From positions 1-32,558 of the forward strand of contig CAJOFT010000011.1 in the NCBI GenBank assembly GCA_905234025.1: DNA of 32,558 nucleotides. The letters run 5' to 3'. This DNA is from Paludibacteraceae bacterium (GTDB lineage Bacteria; Bacteroidota; Bacteroidia; Bacteroidales; Paludibacteraceae). How positions within the stretch are numbered: the first letter of the stretch is position 1; each line of letters opens with the position of its first letter. Below the pieces are notes generated by a model that saw only the letters and a list, made by a program, of their open reading frames with translations, was not told the origin of the DNA and did not search any database. Shown piece by piece: positions 5,351 to 22,059 of the stretch. The position numbers and the translations under genes are program-made.

Positions 5351-5392
5351 TAAATCGTAAATCGCTAAATCGTAAATCGCTAAATCGTAAAT
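5351..5392 (+). repeat. 15-bp direct repeats TAAATCGTAAATCGC (2 full + 1 partial) abutting the mraY ATG
   Basis: Read directly; ends 1 nt before ATG 5394. Confidence 0.93.
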
Positions 5393-8615: not shown

Positions 8616-8652
8616 AGTACACCCAACACGTTAAATCTTACACGCTCACCCC

Positions 8653-8755
8653 CCTAAACGTTAAACGCTACACGCTAAACGCTAAACGTTAAACGTTAAA
8701 CCCTAAACGTTAAACCCTAAACGTTAAACCCTAAACGTTAAACCCTAAACGGTTA
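8653..8755 (+). repeat. Telomere-like tandem array, core unit CCCTAAACGTTAAA (14 bp)
   Basis: Units 8701-8714, 8715-8728, 8729-8742, partial 8743-8750; degenerate TAAACG repeats upstream. Confidence 0.92.
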
Positions 8756-8779
8756 ACCACCCCCCATCCAACTATACGT

Positions 8780-8812
8780 AATTTATAGGTTATTTATAGG
8801 TGATTTATAGGT
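8780..8812 (+). repeat. Three contiguous 11-bp direct repeats NATTTATAGGT
   Basis: aatttataggt/tatttataggt/gatttataggt. Confidence 0.92.
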
Positions 8813-8942
8813 TGTTCAGAAGACTGAAAGGACATATAAAAGGCTTATGACCATCTTCTGACAGCCAAGTTCACCGCAAATTTATTCCCGTTGGAAAGAA
8901 AATAAGAACTCTAATATTTACACAACAAAAATCGTACCAAAC

Positions 8943-9449
8943 ATGGCACAAGTCACATTAAAAAATCCATTTGATTCATTTCATGGCACATTGACGCCGC
9001 ATGGCATCGTCAATCGCAAGAAAACGTACAAAATCCGCAATAGCAAAGCTGTTGCCAAAGGACCTCAGGAGGCGTATGTCATCAAGCATCCCCGCGATTA
9101 CGAAATCGATCCTCCGAAGGGTGAGGAGCTCCGTAATATCAACTGTTGGACAGAGGCGTCGAACCGTGCCGCGCAGTTGATTTTGATGGAGAAGAACGAC
9201 GGTGTTATTCCGAAGGAAAAGCTGGCTGTCTATGCGTTGCGCAAAGTTCCTGTTTATTACACGTGGGATGAGGCGGAGCCGCTTATAAATCTGTTCCGTT
9301 CCCGTTTTGAACGCCAGTTTCCTGGCAAGCGTGGTTCCGCTCCTGACGACGATGCTCCCATTGACAAAACCACGCATCGCCCCAAGCGTTACATCCATTT
9401 CCCCTCCTTCCTCCGTGCCATCCTGTACCGCACCATCAAATCCCGCTAA
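8943..9449 (+). CDS. Conserved hypothetical protein, possibly a Bacteroidales-restricted family
   Basis: Intact 168-aa ORF with ATG start; family impression from memory only. Confidence 0.65.
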   Translation: MAQVTLKNPFDSFHGTLTPHGIVNRKKTYKIRNSKAVAKGPQEAYVIKHPRDYEIDPPKGEELRNINCWTEASNRAAQLILMEKNDGVIPKEKLAVYALRKVPVYYTWDEAEPLINLFRSRFERQFPGKRGSAPDDDAPIDKTTHRPKRYIHFPSFLRAILYRTIKSR

Positions 9450-9466
9450 AAAATCTGCATATATTA

Positions 9467-9508
9467 TGCAAATTTATTTGCATATGTCAAAAATAAGTTG
9501 TACCTTTG
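9467..9508 (+). promoter_or_regulatory. Promoter TTTG-N20-TACCTTTG with overlapping palindrome TGCAAATTTATTTGCA (9467-9482)
   Basis: TTTG 9477-9480, TACCTTTG 9501-9508; the palindrome covers the -33 element. Confidence 0.75.
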
Positions 9509-9530
9509 CGCGCTGAAATTTGTTTACTCA

Positions 9531-9788
9531 ATGAAAGATAATCAGACTACACAGAAAAGTGGTCAGACAAGTACGTTGACAGATACGTTGACAAGTACGT
9601 TGACGGGTACGCGGAAAAGTATTGTTGATATCATTCGGGAAAACCCTAAAATTACCATCCCTCAAATAGCAACCCGGTTGGGCAAAAATCCGCGAGGAAT
9701 AGACAAACACATGCAAAAACTCCGCGAACTTGGTATCATCCGCCGTGTTGGGGGAGATTTTGGCGGTCATTGGGAAATTGTGTCGTAG
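9531..9788 (+). CDS. Small winged-HTH protein with 12-bp-repeat-encoded linker (TLTDTLTSTLTGT)
   Basis: ATG at 9531 just downstream of the promoter; HTH IVDIIRENPKITIPQIATRLGKNPRGIDKHMQKLRELGIIRRVG. Confidence 0.8.
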   Translation: MKDNQTTQKSGQTSTLTDTLTSTLTGTRKSIVDIIRENPKITIPQIATRLGKNPRGIDKHMQKLRELGIIRRVGGDFGGHWEIVS

Positions 9789-9868
9789 TAAATATACCCC
9801 CGACATACATAGGGAATCCCCCTAACACTGCCATTAACACAGCAATAAAAAAGAAAATAAATAAAACT

Positions 9869-10696
9869 ATGGCAAAGATAGTACATACCATCTTATTTGG
9901 AGAGGATATAGATAGTTCTCGGCAAGTATATATCGACAATTGCGTTTGCCAATTGTTTCTGATTCGTCATGACGATAATGCCGTACTCGCACAAATCGCA
10001 GATGCTATTGATAAACCTGCTGTGTATGTTCTCCTGAATAGAGAGACAAGGAAGGCGTATGTTGGTCAGACCGATTCGTTCAAGAAGCGTTTGCAGCAGC
10101 ATTGGAACAAGACATTCTGGACAGAAGCCATGTGTTTCCAAGCCAATGACAATTCTTTGCATCTGACGAGTATTCATTATTTGGAAGCTATCGCCTATGA
10201 CTTAGCCAAGAAAGTCGGTAATTATGATCTCTCTGAGAACACCCAAGTGCCAAAGAAACCGGCAACGACTCCGCAACATCGCATTCCGGCAGAGCAGTTT
10301 TTTGAGTATGTACAGTTCTTGACGCAGTTTGTCGGCTGTGATATCTTCAGTTCAAAAAAGGAACAGGCTAAGCCGGAGCAACACATCTTTTATTGCAAGA
10401 GAGCTGGGAGCGATGCTAAGGGGTATCTGCGCGAGAATGAAGAATTTGTTGTATTAGCCGGAAGCGAACTGCGTAGTGGAGAGTGCGATTCACTCAAACC
10501 GCAATCCATCGAGAAACGCAATGCTTTTATTAAAGTTAATTGCACGCAAGCAAAAGGCAAGATTATCCTTAAAGCAGATTACACTTTCGCCTCACCATCT
10601 GCGGCCGCAGCAATGGTTGTAGGTGGCAGTTCCAACGGCTGGACAAGATGGAAGGATGCAGAAGGAAAAACGTTGAGCGAGGTTTACAGAAAATAG
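9869..10696 (+). CDS. GIY-YIG nuclease-like protein with C-terminal DUF4357
   Basis: AVYVLLNRETRKAYVGQTDSFKKRL; ASPSAAAAMVVGGSSNGWTRWKDAEGKTLSEVYR. Confidence 0.85.
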   Translation: MAKIVHTILFGEDIDSSRQVYIDNCVCQLFLIRHDDNAVLAQIADAIDKPAVYVLLNRETRKAYVGQTDSFKKRLQQHWNKTFWTEAMCFQANDNSLHLTSIHYLEAIAYDLAKKVGNYDLSENTQVPKKPATTPQHRIPAEQFFEYVQFLTQFVGCDIFSSKKEQAKPEQHIFYCKRAGSDAKGYLRENEEFVVLAGSELRSGECDSLKPQSIEKRNAFIKVNCTQAKGKIILKADYTFASPSAAAAMVVGGSSNGWTRWKDAEGKTLSEVYRK

Positions 10697-10699
10697 ACA

Positions 10700-10717
10700 T
10701 TGTAAATTGATTTACAA
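10700..10717. promoter_or_regulatory. Perfect palindrome TTGTAAAT-TG-ATTTACAA upstream of mod
   Basis: Core TGTAAATTGATTTACA matches 13/16 with the palindrome at 9467-9482. Confidence 0.65.
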
Positions 10718-10742
10718 ATCTAAAAAAAGCGAGACAAGATAT

Positions 10743-12476
10743 ATGGCAAAACAGTCTAAATATGATAGTTTATCAAGAGAGCAATTGATTGATAAAATAC
10801 TAAAATTAGAAAAGGAGAAGTATGGCCTTGTCTGGGAAGACAAGGAAGAAGATGTCGCAAAACGTTGCGAGGCAGAACTTCCATTGCTGAAAGAAGATAA
10901 GACGCGGGAGATTGTCAAAGACAAATCATTACCGTATAATATCATTATTGAGGGTGACAATTATCACTCTTTATATGCTTTGAGTTTTTCGCACAAAAAG
11001 AGTATTGATGTTATTTATATTGATCCCCCGTATAATACGGGTAAGAAATACGAATGGAAATATAATGATAGTTGGGTAGATGAGAATGATCGGTATAGAC
11101 ATAGTAAGTGGCTATCGTTTATAAGCAAAAGATTGAGGCTAGCAAGAAATTTATTGACATATGATGGAATCATTTTTATATCAATAAATGAGAATGAGTT
11201 AGCACAATTAAAGTTATTATGTGATTCAATTTTTGGAGAAAAGAATTATATTGCAACATTACCAAGAATCACTAAGAAAGCAGGAAAAACTACTAATGTA
11301 GTAGCAGATAATAATGATTTTGTTATAGCCTATTGTAAAAATAAAGGAAGAACATTTAATAAACTTGAATTGGTAGATAAGCAATATAAACATGAAGATG
11401 AGTATGTGGAAAGTCGTGGGAAATATAAGCTAAGTCAAACTTTAGATTATAGTTCCATACAATATTCAGTCTCTTTAGATTATGAGATAAAATTAGAAGG
11501 TGAAATATTTAGACCAGGAGGTGTGTCATACGATGACATGATTATTCGGCAGCAACGTAACCCTTCTAGTGATTATTGTTGGAGATGGTCTAAAGAATTA
11601 TATGATTTTGGATTAGCAAATGGTTTTATCGTTGTTAAAAGAACTAAGAAAGGAAAAAGAATATATACTAAAACATATCAAAATGCAACTATTAATAAAG
11701 ACGAAGATGGAACATATTTTATAGAATATTCAGAAAGAGCGAAAAATGCCACGACATTAGATTTGACTGATAATGTGTTTTCAAATGATAATGCAAAAAA
11801 AGAGTTAAATAAATTATTTGGAGAAAAGGTATTTGAGTATACAAAACCTACATCTTTAATACAAAGATTAATGTTTTGGGCTAGTAAGAAAGATTCTGTT
11901 GTATTAGATTTTTTTGCAGGGAGTGGCACCACAGGACATGCTATATTAAAATTAAACAAAACCGATGGAGGTAATCGTAGATTTATACTATGCACGAATA
12001 ATGAAAATAATATTTGTACTGAAGTAACATATCCGAGAATAAAAAAAGTAATCGAAGGCTATGCAGATGTATCGGGAATACCTGCAAATCTTAAATACTA
12101 TACGCAAACATTCGTTCCTGTTGTTGTGTCTGATAACGACAAACGGGAATTAGTTAACAGCAGCACAGATATACTATGTGTCGCTGAAGATTGCTATGAA
12201 CTAATCCGAGAAAGAAATAATCAAAGTGATTTTTCTGTATTCAAAAGCGCAAATAAACAAATGGCTATCATATATGATGAGGATTACATATATGATTGTA
12301 TTGATTATTTAAATGAGAACAGGTCTGAATTGGAGACAATCATATATGTGTTCAGTTATGATCACACCTATGATGCCGAAGACTTTGCAGGACTAAATAT
12401 TCAGTTCGCGGTAAAGCCTATACCCGAAGCGATAATAAACGTATATCGTAAAATCTCTAAAATGAAGAAAAAATGA
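10743..12476 (+). CDS. Type III R-M methyltransferase subunit (Mod), beta-class
   Basis: IYIDPPYNTG then DFFAGSGTTGHA motif order; partner res gene follows. Confidence 0.92.
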   Translation: MAKQSKYDSLSREQLIDKILKLEKEKYGLVWEDKEEDVAKRCEAELPLLKEDKTREIVKDKSLPYNIIIEGDNYHSLYALSFSHKKSIDVIYIDPPYNTGKKYEWKYNDSWVDENDRYRHSKWLSFISKRLRLARNLLTYDGIIFISINENELAQLKLLCDSIFGEKNYIATLPRITKKAGKTTNVVADNNDFVIAYCKNKGRTFNKLELVDKQYKHEDEYVESRGKYKLSQTLDYSSIQYSVSLDYEIKLEGEIFRPGGVSYDDMIIRQQRNPSSDYCWRWSKELYDFGLANGFIVVKRTKKGKRIYTKTYQNATINKDEDGTYFIEYSERAKNATTLDLTDNVFSNDNAKKELNKLFGEKVFEYTKPTSLIQRLMFWASKKDSVVLDFFAGSGTTGHAILKLNKTDGGNRRFILCTNNENNICTEVTYPRIKKVIEGYADVSGIPANLKYYTQTFVPVVVSDNDKRELVNSSTDILCVAEDCYELIRERNNQSDFSVFKSANKQMAIIYDEDYIYDCIDYLNENRSELETIIYVFSYDHTYDAEDFAGLNIQFAVKPIPEAIINVYRKISKMKKK

Positions 12477-15322
12477 AAGAGATTCAATACCAGAAAAAAT
12501 ATATCAACAAACTGGCAAACACAGCCAAAGAGTTATTGAAAGACCCATATCGTGATAGTGGTACCATTATTTTCAAAGCTCCTACGGGTTCCGGAAAAAC
12601 ATATATGGTGGCACAAGCGTTAACGCAAATGGTAAAAGATAATCCCGAAATATCTTTTGCCTTTATCTGGATCTCCGTAAACAATTTGCATGAACAAAGC
12701 TTAAATAGTTTGTCTTTATATTTTGAAGATGAGCGATTGCTGGAATGTATTACCAATGCAGACCTAAACAATAATGCAATTGAGCAAAACCAGATAATGT
12801 TCATTAACTGGGAGAGTATAAACAAGGAAAATTCACTTTTCCGTGTCGATAATGAACAAAATTGGAATTTGCAGACAGTTGTAGAAAATACAAGGGATAA
12901 CGGTTGTACCCTCGTTTTGTTGATAGACGAGAGCCATAGAAATGCAAATACCGATAAATCGAAAGAGTTAATTGAAATAATTGCGCCAAGACTTATTATT
13001 GAAGTTACAGCCACCCCGAAGAATTCATCCGGCACCTTAATTGATATACCTTTGAGAGAAGTAATCGACGAAGGCATGATAAAAAAAGAGGTGCGTATCA
13101 ATGATGAAAAGCCATCTTCGATTAAAAATAATGAAGACATATTAAGAATGGCTTTGCGCAAACGTACCCAATTACGAAGTGCATACACGAGCCTTAATAA
13201 AGATATTAATCCGCTATTACTTATTCAAATTCCAAACAAAAGGGCAAATGATGTAAGCAATCCTGAAGATGAAATTATTGCTTTCTTGAGCGAACAAGGA
13301 CTGACCATACAAAATGGGAAAGTTGCTTTATGGTTATCCGAAGATCACAGGAATAAAGAAGAAGTTGAATTAAATAGTAGTGCTGTTGAAGTTCTAATAT
13401 TTAAGGAAGCTATTGCTTTAGGTTGGGATTGTCCAAGAGCAAGCATTTTATTCTTGCAACGTGAATGGAATAATGAACGATATGAGTTCAATATTCAGAC
13501 GTTGGGACGAATTATGCGAATGCCGGAACAGATGCATTATGAAGAAAAACCGGAACTCAATTATGGGTATGTATATACAGCATCCGATAATTTTACAATT
13601 GTTGAAGATTTGGCAAAGGATTATGTTAGTCAGCAAAGATTAACAATTGACCATGATATATATAGTTCTCGTCCCCACATATTTAGCGAACATATTCGTC
13701 GTAAAAGAGAACTAACCAGATTATCCGGCGATTTTAAGAAAGTATTTAATGAGGCAGCGCTAAATTACAGACTGAAGGATAAAATCAATTGTGATGTAAA
13801 TCAAATAGTTAAGACCATAAAATTAGAGGCTGTCGTCCAGGAAATAGATAAAGGAGGAGAGCAAGAAGTACAATTTAAAGATAAAAAACAAATTAACAGA
13901 AGTAAAGCAGAGATCCAGAGTTTATATGATGGATTTATTCGTAAAATGGTGAATCCGTATGAAATTGCTCGTTCTCAAAATATCCTTAAAACGGCTATTC
14001 GCAGCTGGTTTAAATCTGAACTTTCTATTTCAGACGATGATCTTATTCAAATGATTGTAATGAGTTTTAGCCAGAATAATAATGCTCATTTCAAACAGGT
14101 AATAGACGACGCAAAAGAGTTATATAAAAATCTGCCGACAAAGACTGACGAAATAACAACAAATGAGAATTGGACCATTCCTAATTCTGTTGATATTTTC
14201 TCTGATTGTGAAGAAATAAGACCAAGCGCTAAGTCTATATTAAAACAAGAGGATGCAAAGTGTTTTATCGCAAAAAAAGACAAAAATGGTAAATCGGAAT
14301 TATCCAAACCGGAAAAAGAGTTCATTGCTCAAATGGAAGGTTCCGATGACTACCTACAATGGTGGTACAAAAACGGGAAAGGAGAAAGCAAGTATTTTTG
14401 TATAGCTTATCAAAAGGAAGACGGGTTCTATTATGGTTTTTATCCTGACTTTATTCTGAAGACAAAAAAGGAAACAATAATTGTAGAGATAAAAGACGAT
14501 AAAGATTTTAAAGCCGATAATTATTATAAATTAAGAGCGGGCAGGAAATATTTAGAGCGATTGAATGGAGAGGAGAAAGTTCGTTTCTATATTCTTTCTC
14601 CAAATTGTTATTATGAATTTTTCCGGAAATTAAACGATATGGACTTAGATAGCTTTGAGTCCAAATTTGAACATAATTTATTGACATTTATCCAAAGCCA
14701 ACAACTTCAGATTCAAGAAAAGATTAAAAAAGCCGAGGCTTTAACAAAGGCAGAAGAAGAATACAAAGAGCTTTTCTCTGAGTATGAAAAATCCCTATCA
14801 GAGTTAGGAGACGAGAAGTTTAGAAGAGAATTACTGGAGTTGGAATTGGATGAAGCAAAAGCTATTATAGAACAATACAAAACAAATATTGATATTCTAT
14901 CGATTGTTTCTAAGCCCAAAGAAATGACTATTGAAAAAATGGTCATTAGCACCCCATTCAATATATGTATTATAGGTGAAGTTTCGGACCTGTCACAAAT
15001 ACGACATGAGTTGAATTCATATTTTGAGAAAATAGGAATTGCTCCAACAGATTGGGATGTGGATTTTATCAACAATACAAAATTGGAGAATGCCAATATA
15101 TACAAATCTCTGCAGAAGGGACAAACTAAATATAACATCATTGTCGTGGGACAAATATACCATCATTCGGGAAAAGGAAACCAAAAGGCTAATATTATTT
15201 CAGAATTAAAAAATGAGAAATATATACCATTTATTGTTGGTTGTTCTCCTAAAGAGGTGTTGACACCGGATAATTTAATAAAGAAATTACATGAGTATTT
15301 GACAGAATATTACTCCATATAG
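12473..15322 (+). CDS. Type III R-M restriction subunit (Res), with extra C-terminal domain
   Basis: APTGSGKT Walker A, LLIDESHRN, TATPK, PD-(D/E)XK-like PDFILKTKKETIIVEIKD; ATGA overlap with mod. Confidence 0.9.
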   Translation: MKEIQYQKKYINKLANTAKELLKDPYRDSGTIIFKAPTGSGKTYMVAQALTQMVKDNPEISFAFIWISVNNLHEQSLNSLSLYFEDERLLECITNADLNNNAIEQNQIMFINWESINKENSLFRVDNEQNWNLQTVVENTRDNGCTLVLLIDESHRNANTDKSKELIEIIAPRLIIEVTATPKNSSGTLIDIPLREVIDEGMIKKEVRINDEKPSSIKNNEDILRMALRKRTQLRSAYTSLNKDINPLLLIQIPNKRANDVSNPEDEIIAFLSEQGLTIQNGKVALWLSEDHRNKEEVELNSSAVEVLIFKEAIALGWDCPRASILFLQREWNNERYEFNIQTLGRIMRMPEQMHYEEKPELNYGYVYTASDNFTIVEDLAKDYVSQQRLTIDHDIYSSRPHIFSEHIRRKRELTRLSGDFKKVFNEAALNYRLKDKINCDVNQIVKTIKLEAVVQEIDKGGEQEVQFKDKKQINRSKAEIQSLYDGFIRKMVNPYEIARSQNILKTAIRSWFKSELSISDDDLIQMIVMSFSQNNNAHFKQVIDDAKELYKNLPTKTDEITTNENWTIPNSVDIFSDCEEIRPSAKSILKQEDAKCFIAKKDKNGKSELSKPEKEFIAQMEGSDDYLQWWYKNGKGESKYFCIAYQKEDGFYYGFYPDFILKTKKETIIVEIKDDKDFKADNYYKLRAGRKYLERLNGEEKVRFYILSPNCYYEFFRKLNDMDLDSFESKFEHNLLTFIQSQQLQIQEKIKKAEALTKAEEEYKELFSEYEKSLSELGDEKFRRELLELELDEAKAIIEQYKTNIDILSIVSKPKEMTIEKMVISTPFNICIIGEVSDLSQIRHELNSYFEKIGIAPTDWDVDFINNTKLENANIYKSLQKGQTKYNIIVVGQIYHHSGKGNQKANIISELKNEKYIPFIVGCSPKEVLTPDNLIKKLHEYLTEYYSI

Positions 15323-15414
15323 CATCGTGCCAGACCGAAATCCGCAAAGCGCAAGATATTATTGACGGCTGTGCCGCACGCAAGAAAGCAATACTGGATA
15401 AATATTTGAAATAA
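15322..15414 (+). pseudogene. Relic of HsdS (Type I specificity subunit) C-terminus
   Basis: ASCQTEIRKAQDIIDGCAARKKAILDKYLK* matches the characteristic HsdS terminal helix and has no upstream gene. Confidence 0.7.
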
Positions 15415-15522
15415 ACAAAATTAGATTGTAAAAATGGCAAATTACAAAATAAGATATCGTTAGTAAAAAAGTGGAGTGTGTTTTGATAAAAGAATCTATT
15501 TCGCAATTTGATTATTAATTGT

Positions 15523-17499
15523 ATGCAAGACAGAGTTTGTTATTTCTCAAGGGATGATATGTCTTTAGGGTATAATCTTGAAATGGCGGAAAAGCGTATT
15601 CAAGAACTGTCTAAAGGTGAGATGCCTACTGATATAGAAGGCATCATTGAACTATGGCATATCAAACAGATGTATGATAATGATTGCAGATTACTGAAAT
15701 GGGATGATAATGAATATCAAACACTGAAAGACCAAACACATGAGTATAACAATATTATAGCGAGATTTTTTAATGGTCTTAACCCTAAAACAATAAAAAA
15801 CAATTTCGAACATTTAGAATGGGGTTATAAAAAAACATTCTGGGAAATAATAGATGCATATAAGTTATATAAACTGCTTGAACCGGAGACCTTACGTGAA
15901 ATACTAACAAAAAACATCAATTATGTACGTGAGGTTTTAGAGTGCCAAGGTTTAGTTGAAAAGTTTAAAGGCATTATTCGTGAAATCCTTATCAGCAACG
16001 TAAATTGTGCTCATATTCTTTTAGATAAATATGTTGCTAAGCAAGACTTGCATAGAGAAAAGAAAATCTATTTGCCATCCAATCTTACTTTAGAAGATAA
16101 AGAGCAAATGCTTATTAATTATTTACAAAGTGCAGAGCCTAATATAAACTATGTACGGTTAATTTCTCAAATAAAAAACTGTAGTCAAATAAAAATATCA
16201 CCAAAAACAAGACTTATGGCTGAAAAATTAGCTCAGAAACTTAATGATGAATTGATGAGCAGTCCAACAGCCATAAAAACGAATTGGTCTGTGGGGATTC
16301 GGTTTGTGGATGATAATAAAACAGAGCCAATAGAGTTAAGTATTGATGAAAAAGGTGTTCTTACATATACTTACAGTATCCCATACATAAAAAAATGTGA
16401 TAGCGTAAGGAGAGTGACTAATTGTATCTCACTTTTCGGCTGGTTGAATAATCACCGTATGTTAAATCTAATTAATAAGAGAACCGAAGTGGACACTATG
16501 GAAACCTTATTGATTGATAAAGGAAAGGACGCTTATCCAACATATATGGTATTTGACCAAAAGAATAGATTGTCATTACATCAGTTATACGCATATAGAA
16601 ATACCCTTACCACGATTAATGGTTCTTATGAAGGTGAGTTAAAGCAGTTCTATGAACATTATCTCAAAGATACATATGGTTATCCGGGATTAGTCATAAA
16701 CCTCCCAAAATCCGAAGATTCAGCACTGAATAAATGCCTTATAATATGTCCTGTTTTAGATGCAATAGTAAAACAATTTAACGCATTTGCGGAAGAAGGC
16801 GAAATAGATAAGGAACTTATTAGGTTGTCTCTACCGTTGAAGGTTGAAGAAGGGAAAAGCCTTTTAGCAAATAAATACTATGAAATAGCCGAAGATAATG
16901 ATGATATAAAGAGTGTCCTGTATGGTTTATTTGGGGCGGGTAATTCATTACTTGCTTATGTAGAACCCTTCAAAAATAAAAATTATCATTCATTAATCGA
17001 TTTGCTTACAAATGAAACAAAGGTACTATACTCAAATTATCATGCATATCAAAAGCCTCATCTTGATTTTCTAATAAAACAAGGAGTGATCGGTGTTAGT
17101 GCCGACGGATATGTTTATGTCGCAAATCCATCAATGGTCAAAGTTTTAAAATCTTTATGGGAGTATGAAGCATGCTCTTATTGGCATTATGGGGAAGCAG
17201 AGCGAAAAACAATTGATGATATGTGCGCAAATGGCTGGCTTGTGAAAGATAATCATTTGTTAAGTAAGCCGGAACGTGACTATTTCAGTTATTACCTTGA
17301 TAATATGAAATTTACCAATGGAAAGGCATATAGAAATCATTATGCACATGGAGATTCTCTTTCAGCAGATGATGTAAATGCACATTCTTTAGCATACATA
17401 ACTTTCTTAGAGTTACTTACAATATTGTTACTAAAGATTGAGGACGATTTACAGTTATCAAGAAACACAGGACTCTTGCCCACAAAGCAAAACAACTGA
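15523..17499 (+). CDS. Uncharacterised large protein with C-terminal HEPN-like motif (RNHYAH)
   Basis: Long intact ORF; YRNHYAHG followed by a hydrophobic helix; no other recognised domain. Confidence 0.7.
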   Translation: MQDRVCYFSRDDMSLGYNLEMAEKRIQELSKGEMPTDIEGIIELWHIKQMYDNDCRLLKWDDNEYQTLKDQTHEYNNIIARFFNGLNPKTIKNNFEHLEWGYKKTFWEIIDAYKLYKLLEPETLREILTKNINYVREVLECQGLVEKFKGIIREILISNVNCAHILLDKYVAKQDLHREKKIYLPSNLTLEDKEQMLINYLQSAEPNINYVRLISQIKNCSQIKISPKTRLMAEKLAQKLNDELMSSPTAIKTNWSVGIRFVDDNKTEPIELSIDEKGVLTYTYSIPYIKKCDSVRRVTNCISLFGWLNNHRMLNLINKRTEVDTMETLLIDKGKDAYPTYMVFDQKNRLSLHQLYAYRNTLTTINGSYEGELKQFYEHYLKDTYGYPGLVINLPKSEDSALNKCLIICPVLDAIVKQFNAFAEEGEIDKELIRLSLPLKVEEGKSLLANKYYEIAEDNDDIKSVLYGLFGAGNSLLAYVEPFKNKNYHSLIDLLTNETKVLYSNYHAYQKPHLDFLIKQGVIGVSADGYVYVANPSMVKVLKSLWEYEACSYWHYGEAERKTIDDMCANGWLVKDNHLLSKPERDYFSYYLDNMKFTNGKAYRNHYAHGDSLSADDVNAHSLAYITFLELLTILLLKIEDDLQLSRNTGLLPTKQNN

Positions 17500-17582
17500 T
17501 TAAACAGCAACAACCCAAAGCACCCAAACCACCAAACCGGATTTCCTAATCTGGAGCGAGTTAATGAATAAAAAGGAAGAAT

Positions 17583-18950
17583 ATGGAAACACAAAATATA
17601 GAGTACAAAGTAAAGTGGAAAGACGAGTTTCTAAAAGAGATTTGCGCATTTGCCAATTCCCAAGGCGGTACGCTTTATATCGGCATTGACGATAACGGAC
17701 ACATTGAGGGCGTAACTGATGCGAAGAACTTATTAGAAAACCTACCCAACAAAGTGCGGGATACAATGGGTATCTTGGTCAATGTCAAGCACGAACGCAG
17801 AGAAGACAAAGATATTGTCTCCGTTTCTGTCGAGCCAAGTAGCGTTCCTATCTCGCTCAATTCTCAGTATTATATTCGTTCAGGTTCAACAAAACAGGAA
17901 TTGCGCGGTACTGCTCTGCAAGAGTTTATACTCAAAAAGATGGGCAAGCAATGGGACGATGTGTATCACGATACAGCAACTATAGATTGCATTGATCCCA
18001 AGGCTATTGCATATTTCATCAAACGAAGTATTGCTGCCAAACGCCTTACGCCGGAAACAACTGGCGATACGCCGCAAGAAGTATTGGAGAACTTGCGGCT
18101 TATCTCTGATGATGGCAAACTCAAATATGCTGCAATTCTGCTTTTCGCCAAAGATCCTTTGCGCTATTTTACAGGAGTACAATTCAAAATAGGTCGTTTC
18201 GGAGAGGATGAAGCGGATTTGCGCTCACAAGACATAGTGGAGGGTAACATTCTTCAAATGGCAGACCGCGTTATTGAGGTTCTTAAGAACAAATACCTCC
18301 ATTCATACATTCGGTATGAGGGTATGCAACGCATTGAGGAATTGGAGATACCTGAAGATGCTTTCCGTGAAATATTGTACAATGCGATAGTTCACAAACA
18401 ATATACAGGCGCACCTATACAAATGCGTATCTTTGAAGACCATATCGAGTTGTGGAACGAAGGGAATCTGCCGGAGAACTACACAGTGGAAACACTCATG
18501 CACAAACATGCGTCCAAACCTCGGAACTTGAATATCGCTAGTGTGTTCTACAAAGCAGGTTTTATTGAGGCATGGGGGCGCGGTTACAAGAAGATTCAGG
18601 ACGGTTTCAATGAAGCCAAACTGCCGATGCCTGTTTTTGCAACAGCGTTCGGAGGTGTGGAAGTGAATATAACAAGACCAAGAGCCATTGAAAATGGCGG
18701 TCAAAATGGCGGTCAAAATGCAGCGCAATTAACTGAAAGACAGCAGTTAATACTCTCTTCAATAGAGAAACATGGCGGTCATGTTGGCGGACAAAATGGC
18801 GGTCAAAAAGCGGGGTTGAATAATGAAGATTTGGCAAAATTGTTGGGTATAAGCTTACGAACCATTGAAAGAGAAGTTGTTGTTTTGAAGAAAAAGAATC
18901 TCATCAAGCGTATTGGCTATGGCTTAAAAGGCTATTGGGCAATTATTTGA
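17583..18950 (+). CDS. AlbA_2 (Schlafen-like) DNA-binding/ATPase-type protein with C-terminal wHTH
   Basis: ESE-type N-terminus, ICAFANSQGGTLYIGIDDNG, VHKQYTGAPIQMRIFEDHIELWNEG, GGQNGGQN linker, HTH. Confidence 0.88.
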   Translation: METQNIEYKVKWKDEFLKEICAFANSQGGTLYIGIDDNGHIEGVTDAKNLLENLPNKVRDTMGILVNVKHERREDKDIVSVSVEPSSVPISLNSQYYIRSGSTKQELRGTALQEFILKKMGKQWDDVYHDTATIDCIDPKAIAYFIKRSIAAKRLTPETTGDTPQEVLENLRLISDDGKLKYAAILLFAKDPLRYFTGVQFKIGRFGEDEADLRSQDIVEGNILQMADRVIEVLKNKYLHSYIRYEGMQRIEELEIPEDAFREILYNAIVHKQYTGAPIQMRIFEDHIELWNEGNLPENYTVETLMHKHASKPRNLNIASVFYKAGFIEAWGRGYKKIQDGFNEAKLPMPVFATAFGGVEVNITRPRAIENGGQNGGQNAAQLTERQQLILSSIEKHGGHVGGQNGGQKAGLNNEDLAKLLGISLRTIEREVVVLKKKNLIKRIGYGLKGYWAII

Positions 18951-18988
18951 CATGAGATCGGTTTCTCGCCATACAACAACAGAAAACT

Positions 18989-19090
18989 ATGCCCGATGTA
19001 CTAACCCCACAACAACGCCATCGCTGCATGTCGCATATACGCAATAAGGCTACGAAGCCGGAAATGAATACAAAACTGACAACCATATAG
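18989..19090 (+). pseudogene. Truncated Vsr endonuclease N-terminus
   Basis: MPDVLTPQQRHRCMSHIRNKATKPEM then NTKLTTI*. Confidence 0.75.
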
Positions 19091-19108
19091 CCTGGTCCTT
19101 TTTTGAAA
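19087..19108 (+). repeat. 22-bp direct repeat copy 1 (ATAGCCTGGTCCTTTTTTGAAA)
   Basis: Identical to 19439-19460. Confidence 0.93.
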
Positions 19109-19147
19109 CATCAAAGCCGTACATACTACACACATAAATATCAATGC

Positions 19148-19169
19148 ACAGCTTGGTCTTTTTTTGAAA
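19148..19169 (+). repeat. 22-bp direct repeat copy 2 (diverged)
   Basis: ACAGCTTGGTCTTTTTTTGAAA. Confidence 0.85.
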
Positions 19170-19170
19170 T

Positions 19171-19434
19171 ATGAATACAAAAATTAAAACAGAAGAACGG
19201 ATTTGCCGCTTGGTTGCATGTCTTGGGAAAGAGACAAAACCGCGTCGTGAACTGATGGCCGAGTTGGGACTTCGGGAGAGCAGCCGTAGAAATTTCAGGG
19301 TTAATTATATCAATCCTGCGATTGAACAGGGATATGTGCGAATGACTATTCCGGGGGCACCCAGTTGTCCTGAACAAGCTATGTCCTTACTCAAAACGGA
19401 CTTGATTTCCTTGCAGAATTATCACAAGACGTAA
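19171..19434 (+). CDS. Small wHTH ORF resembling the C-terminal domain of Fic/AlbA_2-type proteins; probably frameshifted near its 3' end
   Basis: RRELMAELGLRESSRRNFRVNYINPAIEQGYVRMTIPGAPSCPEQA; expected YVLTQNGLDFL tail lies in another frame. Confidence 0.6.
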   Translation: MNTKIKTEERICRLVACLGKETKPRRELMAELGLRESSRRNFRVNYINPAIEQGYVRMTIPGAPSCPEQAMSLLKTDLISLQNYHKT

Positions 19435-19438
19435 AAGT

Positions 19439-19460
19439 ATAGCCTGGTCCTTTTTTGAAA
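19439..19460 (+). repeat. 22-bp direct repeat copy 3
   Basis: ATAGCCTGGTCCTTTTTTGAAA. Confidence 0.93.
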
Positions 19461-19514
19461 GGGAGAAAAGATAGAAAACGTTAAAAAAAGAAAAAAACTT
19501 GCATTTCAAGTGAT

Positions 19515-19557
19515 AGATTTGCCCTCTTTTATGCCTTATATATGGAGGGGTATATAA
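19515..19557 (+). repeat. 43-bp direct repeat, left copy
   Basis: 40/43 identical to 20688-20730. Confidence 0.93.
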
Positions 19558-19676
19558 AAGGACATGAAGTGTCCGAACAAAGAGCAACAAACGCATTTTG
19601 CATAAAATAAAAAAGCACTCAAAACACTACACTCGATTTCATGCCTAAGGCGAGGTGATGGATAAAAAGGAATAAT

Positions 19677-20681
19677 ATGGAAACACAACCACATATATCG
19701 CAATCAAGTATAGAAATCTATACTGCACCGGACAATAGTATCCAACTGCAAGTCAAGTTGGATCAAGATACAGTATGGCTGACGCAAAAGCAGTTAGCTG
19801 AATTATTTGGCGTTAAAAAAGCAGCTATTTCCAAGCATATATCCAATATATTTGCTACTGGGGAACTTGAACCGACCATGACAGTTTCCAAAATGGAAAC
19901 AGTCGTAAACCGTGGTTTCCGAGGTGTTGTAACGGATTGGGTTGAATACTACAATCTGGACATGATTTTGTCTATTGGCTACCGCGTCAATTCACGTAGC
20001 GCTATTTCCTTCCGTCAATGGGCAAATCGTGTATTGAAAGATTTCCTTATCAAAGGTTACGCAGTACGTACAAGTCTGCAGCTCAAGCAATATGAGGAGC
20101 TGAAGCAGTTGGTCGGTGTGTTGCAACAGACCATGCAAACAGAAGCATTAACCACCAACGAGGCACGAGACTTGGTCAAGGTGGTGACGGATTATACATA
20201 CGCGCTCGACACTTTGGACAATTACGACTATCAGCGTCTTGCAATAAGCGATACTGAAGGTGAAGAGCGTTTCCATGCGACATACGAGAATGCTATGGAG
20301 GCTATTCGCTCACTCAAAGAAAAATTTGGTGAGAGTTGGTTGTTCGGCAACGAGAAAGACGATTCGTTCAAGAGTAGTATAGGGCAGATATACCAGACTT
20401 TCGGCGGTCAGGAACTTTATCCGAGCGTGGAAGAAAAGGCTGCGATGTTGCTGTATCTTGTGACGAAAAATCATTCTTTTTCGGACGGCAACAAACGCAT
20501 TGCCGCTACGCTTTTCCTTTGGTTTATGGACAGAAACGGCATTCTTTACACGCCTGAAGGACACAAACGCATAGCGGATAATACACTTGTTGCACTCACG
20601 CTGATGATTGCCGAGAGCCGGACAGAAGAAAAGGATGTCATGGTAAAGGTGGTCGTTAATCTGATTAACAAAAAGAATTAA
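19677..20681 (+). CDS. RhuM-family protein fused to Fic/DOC-like domain
   Basis: DTVWLTQKQLAELFGVKKAAISKHISNIF; HSFSDGNKRIAATLFLWFMDRNG Fic motif. Confidence 0.9.
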   Translation: METQPHISQSSIEIYTAPDNSIQLQVKLDQDTVWLTQKQLAELFGVKKAAISKHISNIFATGELEPTMTVSKMETVVNRGFRGVVTDWVEYYNLDMILSIGYRVNSRSAISFRQWANRVLKDFLIKGYAVRTSLQLKQYEELKQLVGVLQQTMQTEALTTNEARDLVKVVTDYTYALDTLDNYDYQRLAISDTEGEERFHATYENAMEAIRSLKEKFGESWLFGNEKDDSFKSSIGQIYQTFGGQELYPSVEEKAAMLLYLVTKNHSFSDGNKRIAATLFLWFMDRNGILYTPEGHKRIADNTLVALTLMIAESRTEEKDVMVKVVVNLINKKN

Positions 20682-20687
20682 GCAAAC

Positions 20688-20730
20688 AGATTTGCCCTCT
20701 TTTTTGTCCTATATATGGAGGGGTATATAA
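20688..20730 (+). repeat. 43-bp direct repeat, right copy, immediately upstream of ftsW
   Basis: agatttgccctcttttttgtcctatatatggaggggtatataa. Confidence 0.93.
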
Positions 20731-20748
20731 TAATGATATAATAAAAAC

Positions 20749-22001: not shown

Positions 22002-22059
22002 TTAAATCGTAAATGACTAAATCATAAATGACTAAATCGTAAATGACTAAATCGTAAAT
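22002..22059 (+). repeat. 15-bp direct repeats TAAATCGTAAATGAC (about 4 copies) abutting the murG ATG
   Basis: Read directly. Confidence 0.93.

Follow-up and report, generated by a model that had tools for sequence, protein, structure and literature searches.

What is encoded directly behind a type III restriction-modification (R-M) gene pair in a Paludibacteraceae genome, and does its product work with that R-M system? The window analysed here is the whole 32,558-nucleotide contig CAJOFT010000011.1 (assembly GCA_905234025.1). A sequence-only reading of it had placed a candidate HEPN RNase in an island of defence-type genes, after a type III pair and an HsdS relic and before an AlbA_2-type gene. 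Our searches recovered this setting, with the following features in one block:

9770..10696, + strand: GIY-YIG + DUF4357 protein (PDC-S14), a PADLOC candidate (Pfam, PADLOC)
10707..12476, + strand: type III modification methylase, mod (PF01555, E 2.9e-29; PADLOC MTase_III, E 5e-89)
12473..15322, + strand: type III restriction subunit, res (PF04851, E 7e-21; PADLOC REase_III, E 4e-16)
15325..15411, + strand: HsdS/target-recognition protein relic of 29 codons, covering the C-terminal tail (80-92% match to same-genus specificity-type tails)
15523..17499, + strand: PDC-S56 family protein, predicted HEPN RNase effector, 658 aa (PADLOC model; AlphaFold model)
17583..18950, + strand: SLFN_AlbA_2 + HATPase_c_4 protein (Pfam, PADLOC)
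19677..20681, + strand: RhuM-Fic protein (PDC-S23), a PADLOC candidate and possible associated toxin (PF13310, PF02661; PDC-S23, E 5e-137)

The HsdS relic is real but small, being only a C-terminal tail of about 29 codons. Its GC content is 0.45, and it lies between the AT-rich res and PDC-S56 genes. The relic suggests that R-M modules have been exchanged at the 3' end of a specificity gene. No separate antitoxin gene was found in the neighbourhood of the PDC-S56 gene.

The 12-kb defence-type block (8616-20748) lies within a cell-wall and division gene cluster and separates murD from ftsW by 12 kb. These two genes are direct neighbours, murD first, in 26 of 29 congeners. The mod, res and PDC-S56 genes have a GC content of 0.31-0.34 (third-position GC 0.24-0.31), compared to 0.51-0.52 (0.57-0.70) for mraY, murD, ftsW and murG and 0.43 for the AlbA_2 and RhuM-Fic genes. 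The common low GC of mod, res and PDC-S56 suggests that these three arrived together. No direct repeats of at least 11 bases were found between the two island-end stretches compared. Two other congeners carry unrelated genes upstream of ftsW, which we do not take as evidence of an insertion hotspot.

The stretch 15523-17499 is one intact frame, with no long frame on the reverse strand opposite it. The length of 663 aa first given for its product requires a TTG start at 15508, whereas translation from the ATG at 15523 yields 658 aa; this ATG is the likely start because close homologues share the MQDRV... N-terminus. Searches of Pfam, NCBIfam and PHROGs returned no match for the protein, and a sequence search of solved structures, with both the single sequence and a profile, found nothing relevant and matched no solved HEPN structure. 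The earlier statement that it has no recognisable domain thus holds for Pfam and NCBIfam, but PADLOC has a full-length model, PDLC05039 (PDC-S56), that matches residues 2-649 of 658 to model positions 5-644 of 649 (E 1.6e-173). The window protein therefore belongs to an already catalogued candidate family rather than to a new kind of system, so that the "new" in the proposed new abortive-infection effector was partly wrong, while the predicted HEPN features and the defence setting stand. PADLOC-DB lists PDC-S56 as a candidate single-gene phage defence family, without description, and our literature search found no paper naming it and no mechanism, experiment or activity data for the family. 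A 'guilt-by-embedding' screen yielded the PDC families, the majority of which are untested (PMC12988326). The likely HEPN reading of PDC-S56 is an addition of the present analysis.

We searched plasmids, genome contigs and phage records for relatives. On plasmids, tblastn identified relatives in Pseudoalteromonas, Bacillus thuringiensis and Enterococcus. A scan of GTDB genome contigs with the single protein gave no match; an alignment-based scan later identified 80 loci. None of 50,697 phage records matched the window protein. Members of PDC-S56 occur in the Bacteroidota, Bacillota, Pseudomonadota and Actinomycetota. A full-length member is present in only 3 of 394 genomes of the order, one of them being that of the window itself, and in none of 100 related genomes. 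This rare and patchy occurrence, the interruption of murD-ftsW by an AT-rich block and the PADLOC listing as candidate defence all speak against a gene with a housekeeping or metabolic role in the host that lies in the island by chance, a reading we consider very improbable even though a long intact frame without a known partner would suit it.

Within the protein, the alignment and the predicted structure delimit the following parts:

15523..16260, + strand: N-terminal all-helical, solenoid-like region, residues 1-246, candidate sensor or regulatory part (DSSP of model)
16546..16677, + strand: candidate HEPN helix 1 region, residues 342-385, two helices (inferred assignment)
16723..16797, + strand: candidate HEPN helix 2, residues 401-425, with [DE]413-x3-[KR]417 (conservation in 57 homologues)
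16993..17262, + strand: winged-helix-like insert between helices 2 and 3, residues about 491-580 (helix-strand pattern, weak Foldseek matches)
17266..17346, + strand: candidate HEPN helix 3, residues 582-608, broken, with invariant E584 (model and alignment)
17332..17349, + strand: RNHYAH, Rx4H active-site motif, R604-H609 (R, N, Y and H invariant in 57/57)
17374..17466, + strand: candidate HEPN helix 4, residues 618-648, hydrophobic (AlphaFold model)

The RNHYAH motif occupies residues 604-609 of 658, in the context YRNHYAHG and followed by a hydrophobic helix, just as the sequence-only reading had described. We aligned 57 full-length sequences, with members down to 25% identity to the query, and found nine invariant columns (P185, Y200, N209, F344, E584, R604, N605, Y607 and H609). 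As four of these nine lie in the motif across so divergent an alignment, it is not a chance match. The patterns used in the homologue scan partly contained RNxYxH; nine full-length homologues that did not fit the motif pattern and were found via another peptide nevertheless all keep it (9/9), as do the inspected plasmid homologues, which were found with the whole protein. The HEPN signature Rx4-6H with a polar residue after R is thus present throughout as RNxYxH, with R, H and the polar N605 strictly kept. Further, HEPN domains have a second signature, [DE]x3[KR], upstream of RNxxxH (PMC3710099), and its counterpart here lies on helix 401-425, where position 413 is acidic in 57/57 homologues and position 417 is K or R in 54/57.

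An AlphaFold model built with the 57 sequences (pLDDT 92.0, pTM 0.87) places these residues in a helical setting. By DSSP, residues 15-246 are helical and are followed by three strands; then come helices at 342-364, 369-385 and 401-425, a mixed helix-strand stretch at 491-580, and helices at 582-592, 603-608 and 618-648. The motif is at the end of helix 603-608, with a loop at 609-617 before the long final helix. In HEPN domains it is found where helix 3 ends and the loop towards helix 4 begins (PMC3710099), and the modelled order of secondary structure in the C-terminal half fits this fold. The HEPN domain, previously placed from about residue 560, probably starts instead near residue 342, helices 2 and 3 being separated by a large insert. 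Foldseek searches at E <= 0.001 returned nothing, and no HEPN structure, for either the whole model or residues 334-658 alone; the large insert may hide the bundle. The whole model gave insignificant matches to helical-repeat proteins only. The insignificant matches of the C-terminal part (MntR, CadC, RTP and MarR, several of them winged-helix proteins) presumably fall on the insert.

Such an insert, together with the lack of a fold match, could indicate a HEPN-like domain whose role is to bind RNA or DNA and not to cleave it, for instance a wHTH-containing regulator, and some HEPN families have indeed lost catalysis (PMC3710099). Families that do so usually lose R or H, whereas the present family keeps R, N and H in 57/57 sequences, and we regard a non-cutting binder as rather unlikely.

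The closest link to a named HEPN family is to DUF4209 / C6orf70 (ERMARD), a listed HEPN family (PF13910; PMC3710099). DUF4209 was the most frequent weak Pfam match among the homologues (11/57, best E 0.021) and Csx1_HEPN appeared in 1/57, yet the Pfam gathering cut-off of DUF4209 was reached neither by the query, which had no match, nor by any of the 57 homologues. For a profile-profile comparison we gathered DUF4209 proteins from whole genomes; the C-terminal part scored 38.4 (E 6e-5) against their profile and 41.8 (E 4e-6) with the insert removed, the best of 40 column-shuffled controls reaching 18.7. With the motif columns masked the scores were 17.2 and 14.3 against shuffled maxima of 18.1 and 19.1. 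At this background level it is the motif that carries the DUF4209 link, which adds nothing independent of it, and we rejected DUF4209 as a formal assignment. The two nonetheless share the RNxxxH motif, the acidic-x3-K/R upstream, an F/L-x3-[DE] helix leading into the motif, a large N-terminal region and occurrence in R-M-related operons; what separates them is that the window protein falls below the Pfam cut-off and is similar only at background outside the motif. A C-terminal HEPN motif with a variable N-terminal region is likewise seen in AbiJ, Abi2/AbiD, ApeA and other HEPN Abi proteins (PMC3710099), although the window protein had no sequence match to AbiJ, Abi2/AbiD or ApeA in Pfam, NCBIfam or PADLOC.

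It could be argued that the helical protein is unrelated to HEPN and that RNxYxH is a conserved site of another kind, as neither Foldseek nor sequence searches matched a solved HEPN structure and the DUF4209 similarity depends on the motif. The presence of two distinct HEPN signatures, correctly ordered and in a helical context, along with the weak Pfam matches to DUF4209 and the one to Csx1_HEPN, makes this unlikely. We conclude that the window protein is likely, though not proven, to be a HEPN protein that carries a candidate active site of the RNA-cutting type; it stops short of proof because no structure match was significant and the DUF4209 link vanishes when the motif is masked.

The window protein and its five nearest relatives (loci L013-L017) form a clade with support 97, and in 6/6 the gene has R-M genes (type I, II or III) upstream of it. 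Upstream on the same strand are an HSDR_N/N6-methylase/specificity fusion in L013, with a 603-aa gene in between; HsdM-HsdS in L014 (73 bp gap); mod...res in L015 (21 bp gap); a methylase in L016, with a DUF4062 gene in between; and a methylase in L017 (92 bp gap). The intervening 603-aa protein of L013 (8159-9970 of that locus) has no Pfam or PADLOC match and weak PHROG matches. The L017 gene, a 51% relative from a Lachnospiraceae bin, is nearest to a Bacteroidetes one; either it was passed from one phylum to another or its contig was misbinned. Outside this clade, R-M neighbours turn up sporadically (in L043, L090 and a small number of further loci) and most homologues have no recognised one; the count of R-M neighbours is a lower bound, as R-M genes were sought as homologues of a few queries. 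With most of the family lacking a visible R-M neighbour, R-M coupling cannot be required family-wide. Neighbours vary across the family with no conserved partner gene; AlbA_2-like genes adjoin PDC-S56 genes in L013, L018, L026, L057 and L061, and a RhuM-Fic gene 62% identical to the window's adjoins one in L020.

PrrC is a HEPN anticodon nuclease guarded by the type Ic R-M system EcoprrI. Like PrrC, the window protein has a HEPN-type RNase motif in its C-terminal part and, in the window and the five nearest relatives, is encoded beside R-M genes. Sets of R-M, HEPN, RhuM and Fic/Doc genes have moreover been described near PrrC/RloC-like loci (PMC3710099). Unlike PrrC, the protein has no ABC ATPase domain by Pfam and its N-terminal part is all-helical; and the R-M partners of its clade, putatively guarding, are of types I, II and III rather than type Ic as in EcoprrI.

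Given this pattern, we moderately favour PDC-S56 here as a single-protein, R-M-coupled HEPN RNase for abortive infection with PrrC-like logic, probably a suicide enzyme that backs up the R-M genes against phages. We infer its catalysis, target RNA, trigger and R-M guarding. The C-terminal half would be a divergent HEPN endoribonuclease with its active site at R604-N605...H609, helped by D413 and K417, and the N-terminal helical half a regulatory or sensor region. Normally the effector would be kept silent, either by its own N-terminal part or through the adjacent R-M complex. A phage that blocks or evades restriction would set it free to cut RNA of the host or of the phage, and the infection would abort. 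A candidate defence family would thereby gain a concrete set of catalytic residues and a likely working logic, with one effector clade paired with R-M systems of different types.

A strong rival, which we hold as tentatively plausible, is an autonomous HEPN RNase effector whose N-terminal part or winged-helix insert senses a phage product, the R-M adjacency being defence-island clustering. Its strength comes from most of the family not being visibly R-M-linked: homologues beyond the close clade mostly lack recognised R-M neighbours, neighbours vary with no constant partner, and no R-M gene is annotated next to the plasmid copies. Against it stands the window's own clade, which in every case lies behind R-M genes, and these differ in type across the clade. 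The probabilities of the R-M-coupled and autonomous readings overlap, since they have the HEPN effector core in common and differ only in the trigger. More speculatively, and doubtful in our judgement, the insert interrupting the HEPN bundle could sense DNA, with one effector guarding whichever R-M system lies upstream, type I, II or III, and firing when restriction is blocked.

Elsewhere in the window, the division cluster contains intergenic short tandem repeats at 8662-8756 and also at 227-259, 5351-5392 and 22003-22059 (TAAACGTTAAACCC; AAATCGT-type units), and the start of a 16S rRNA gene lies at the contig end (32472-32558).
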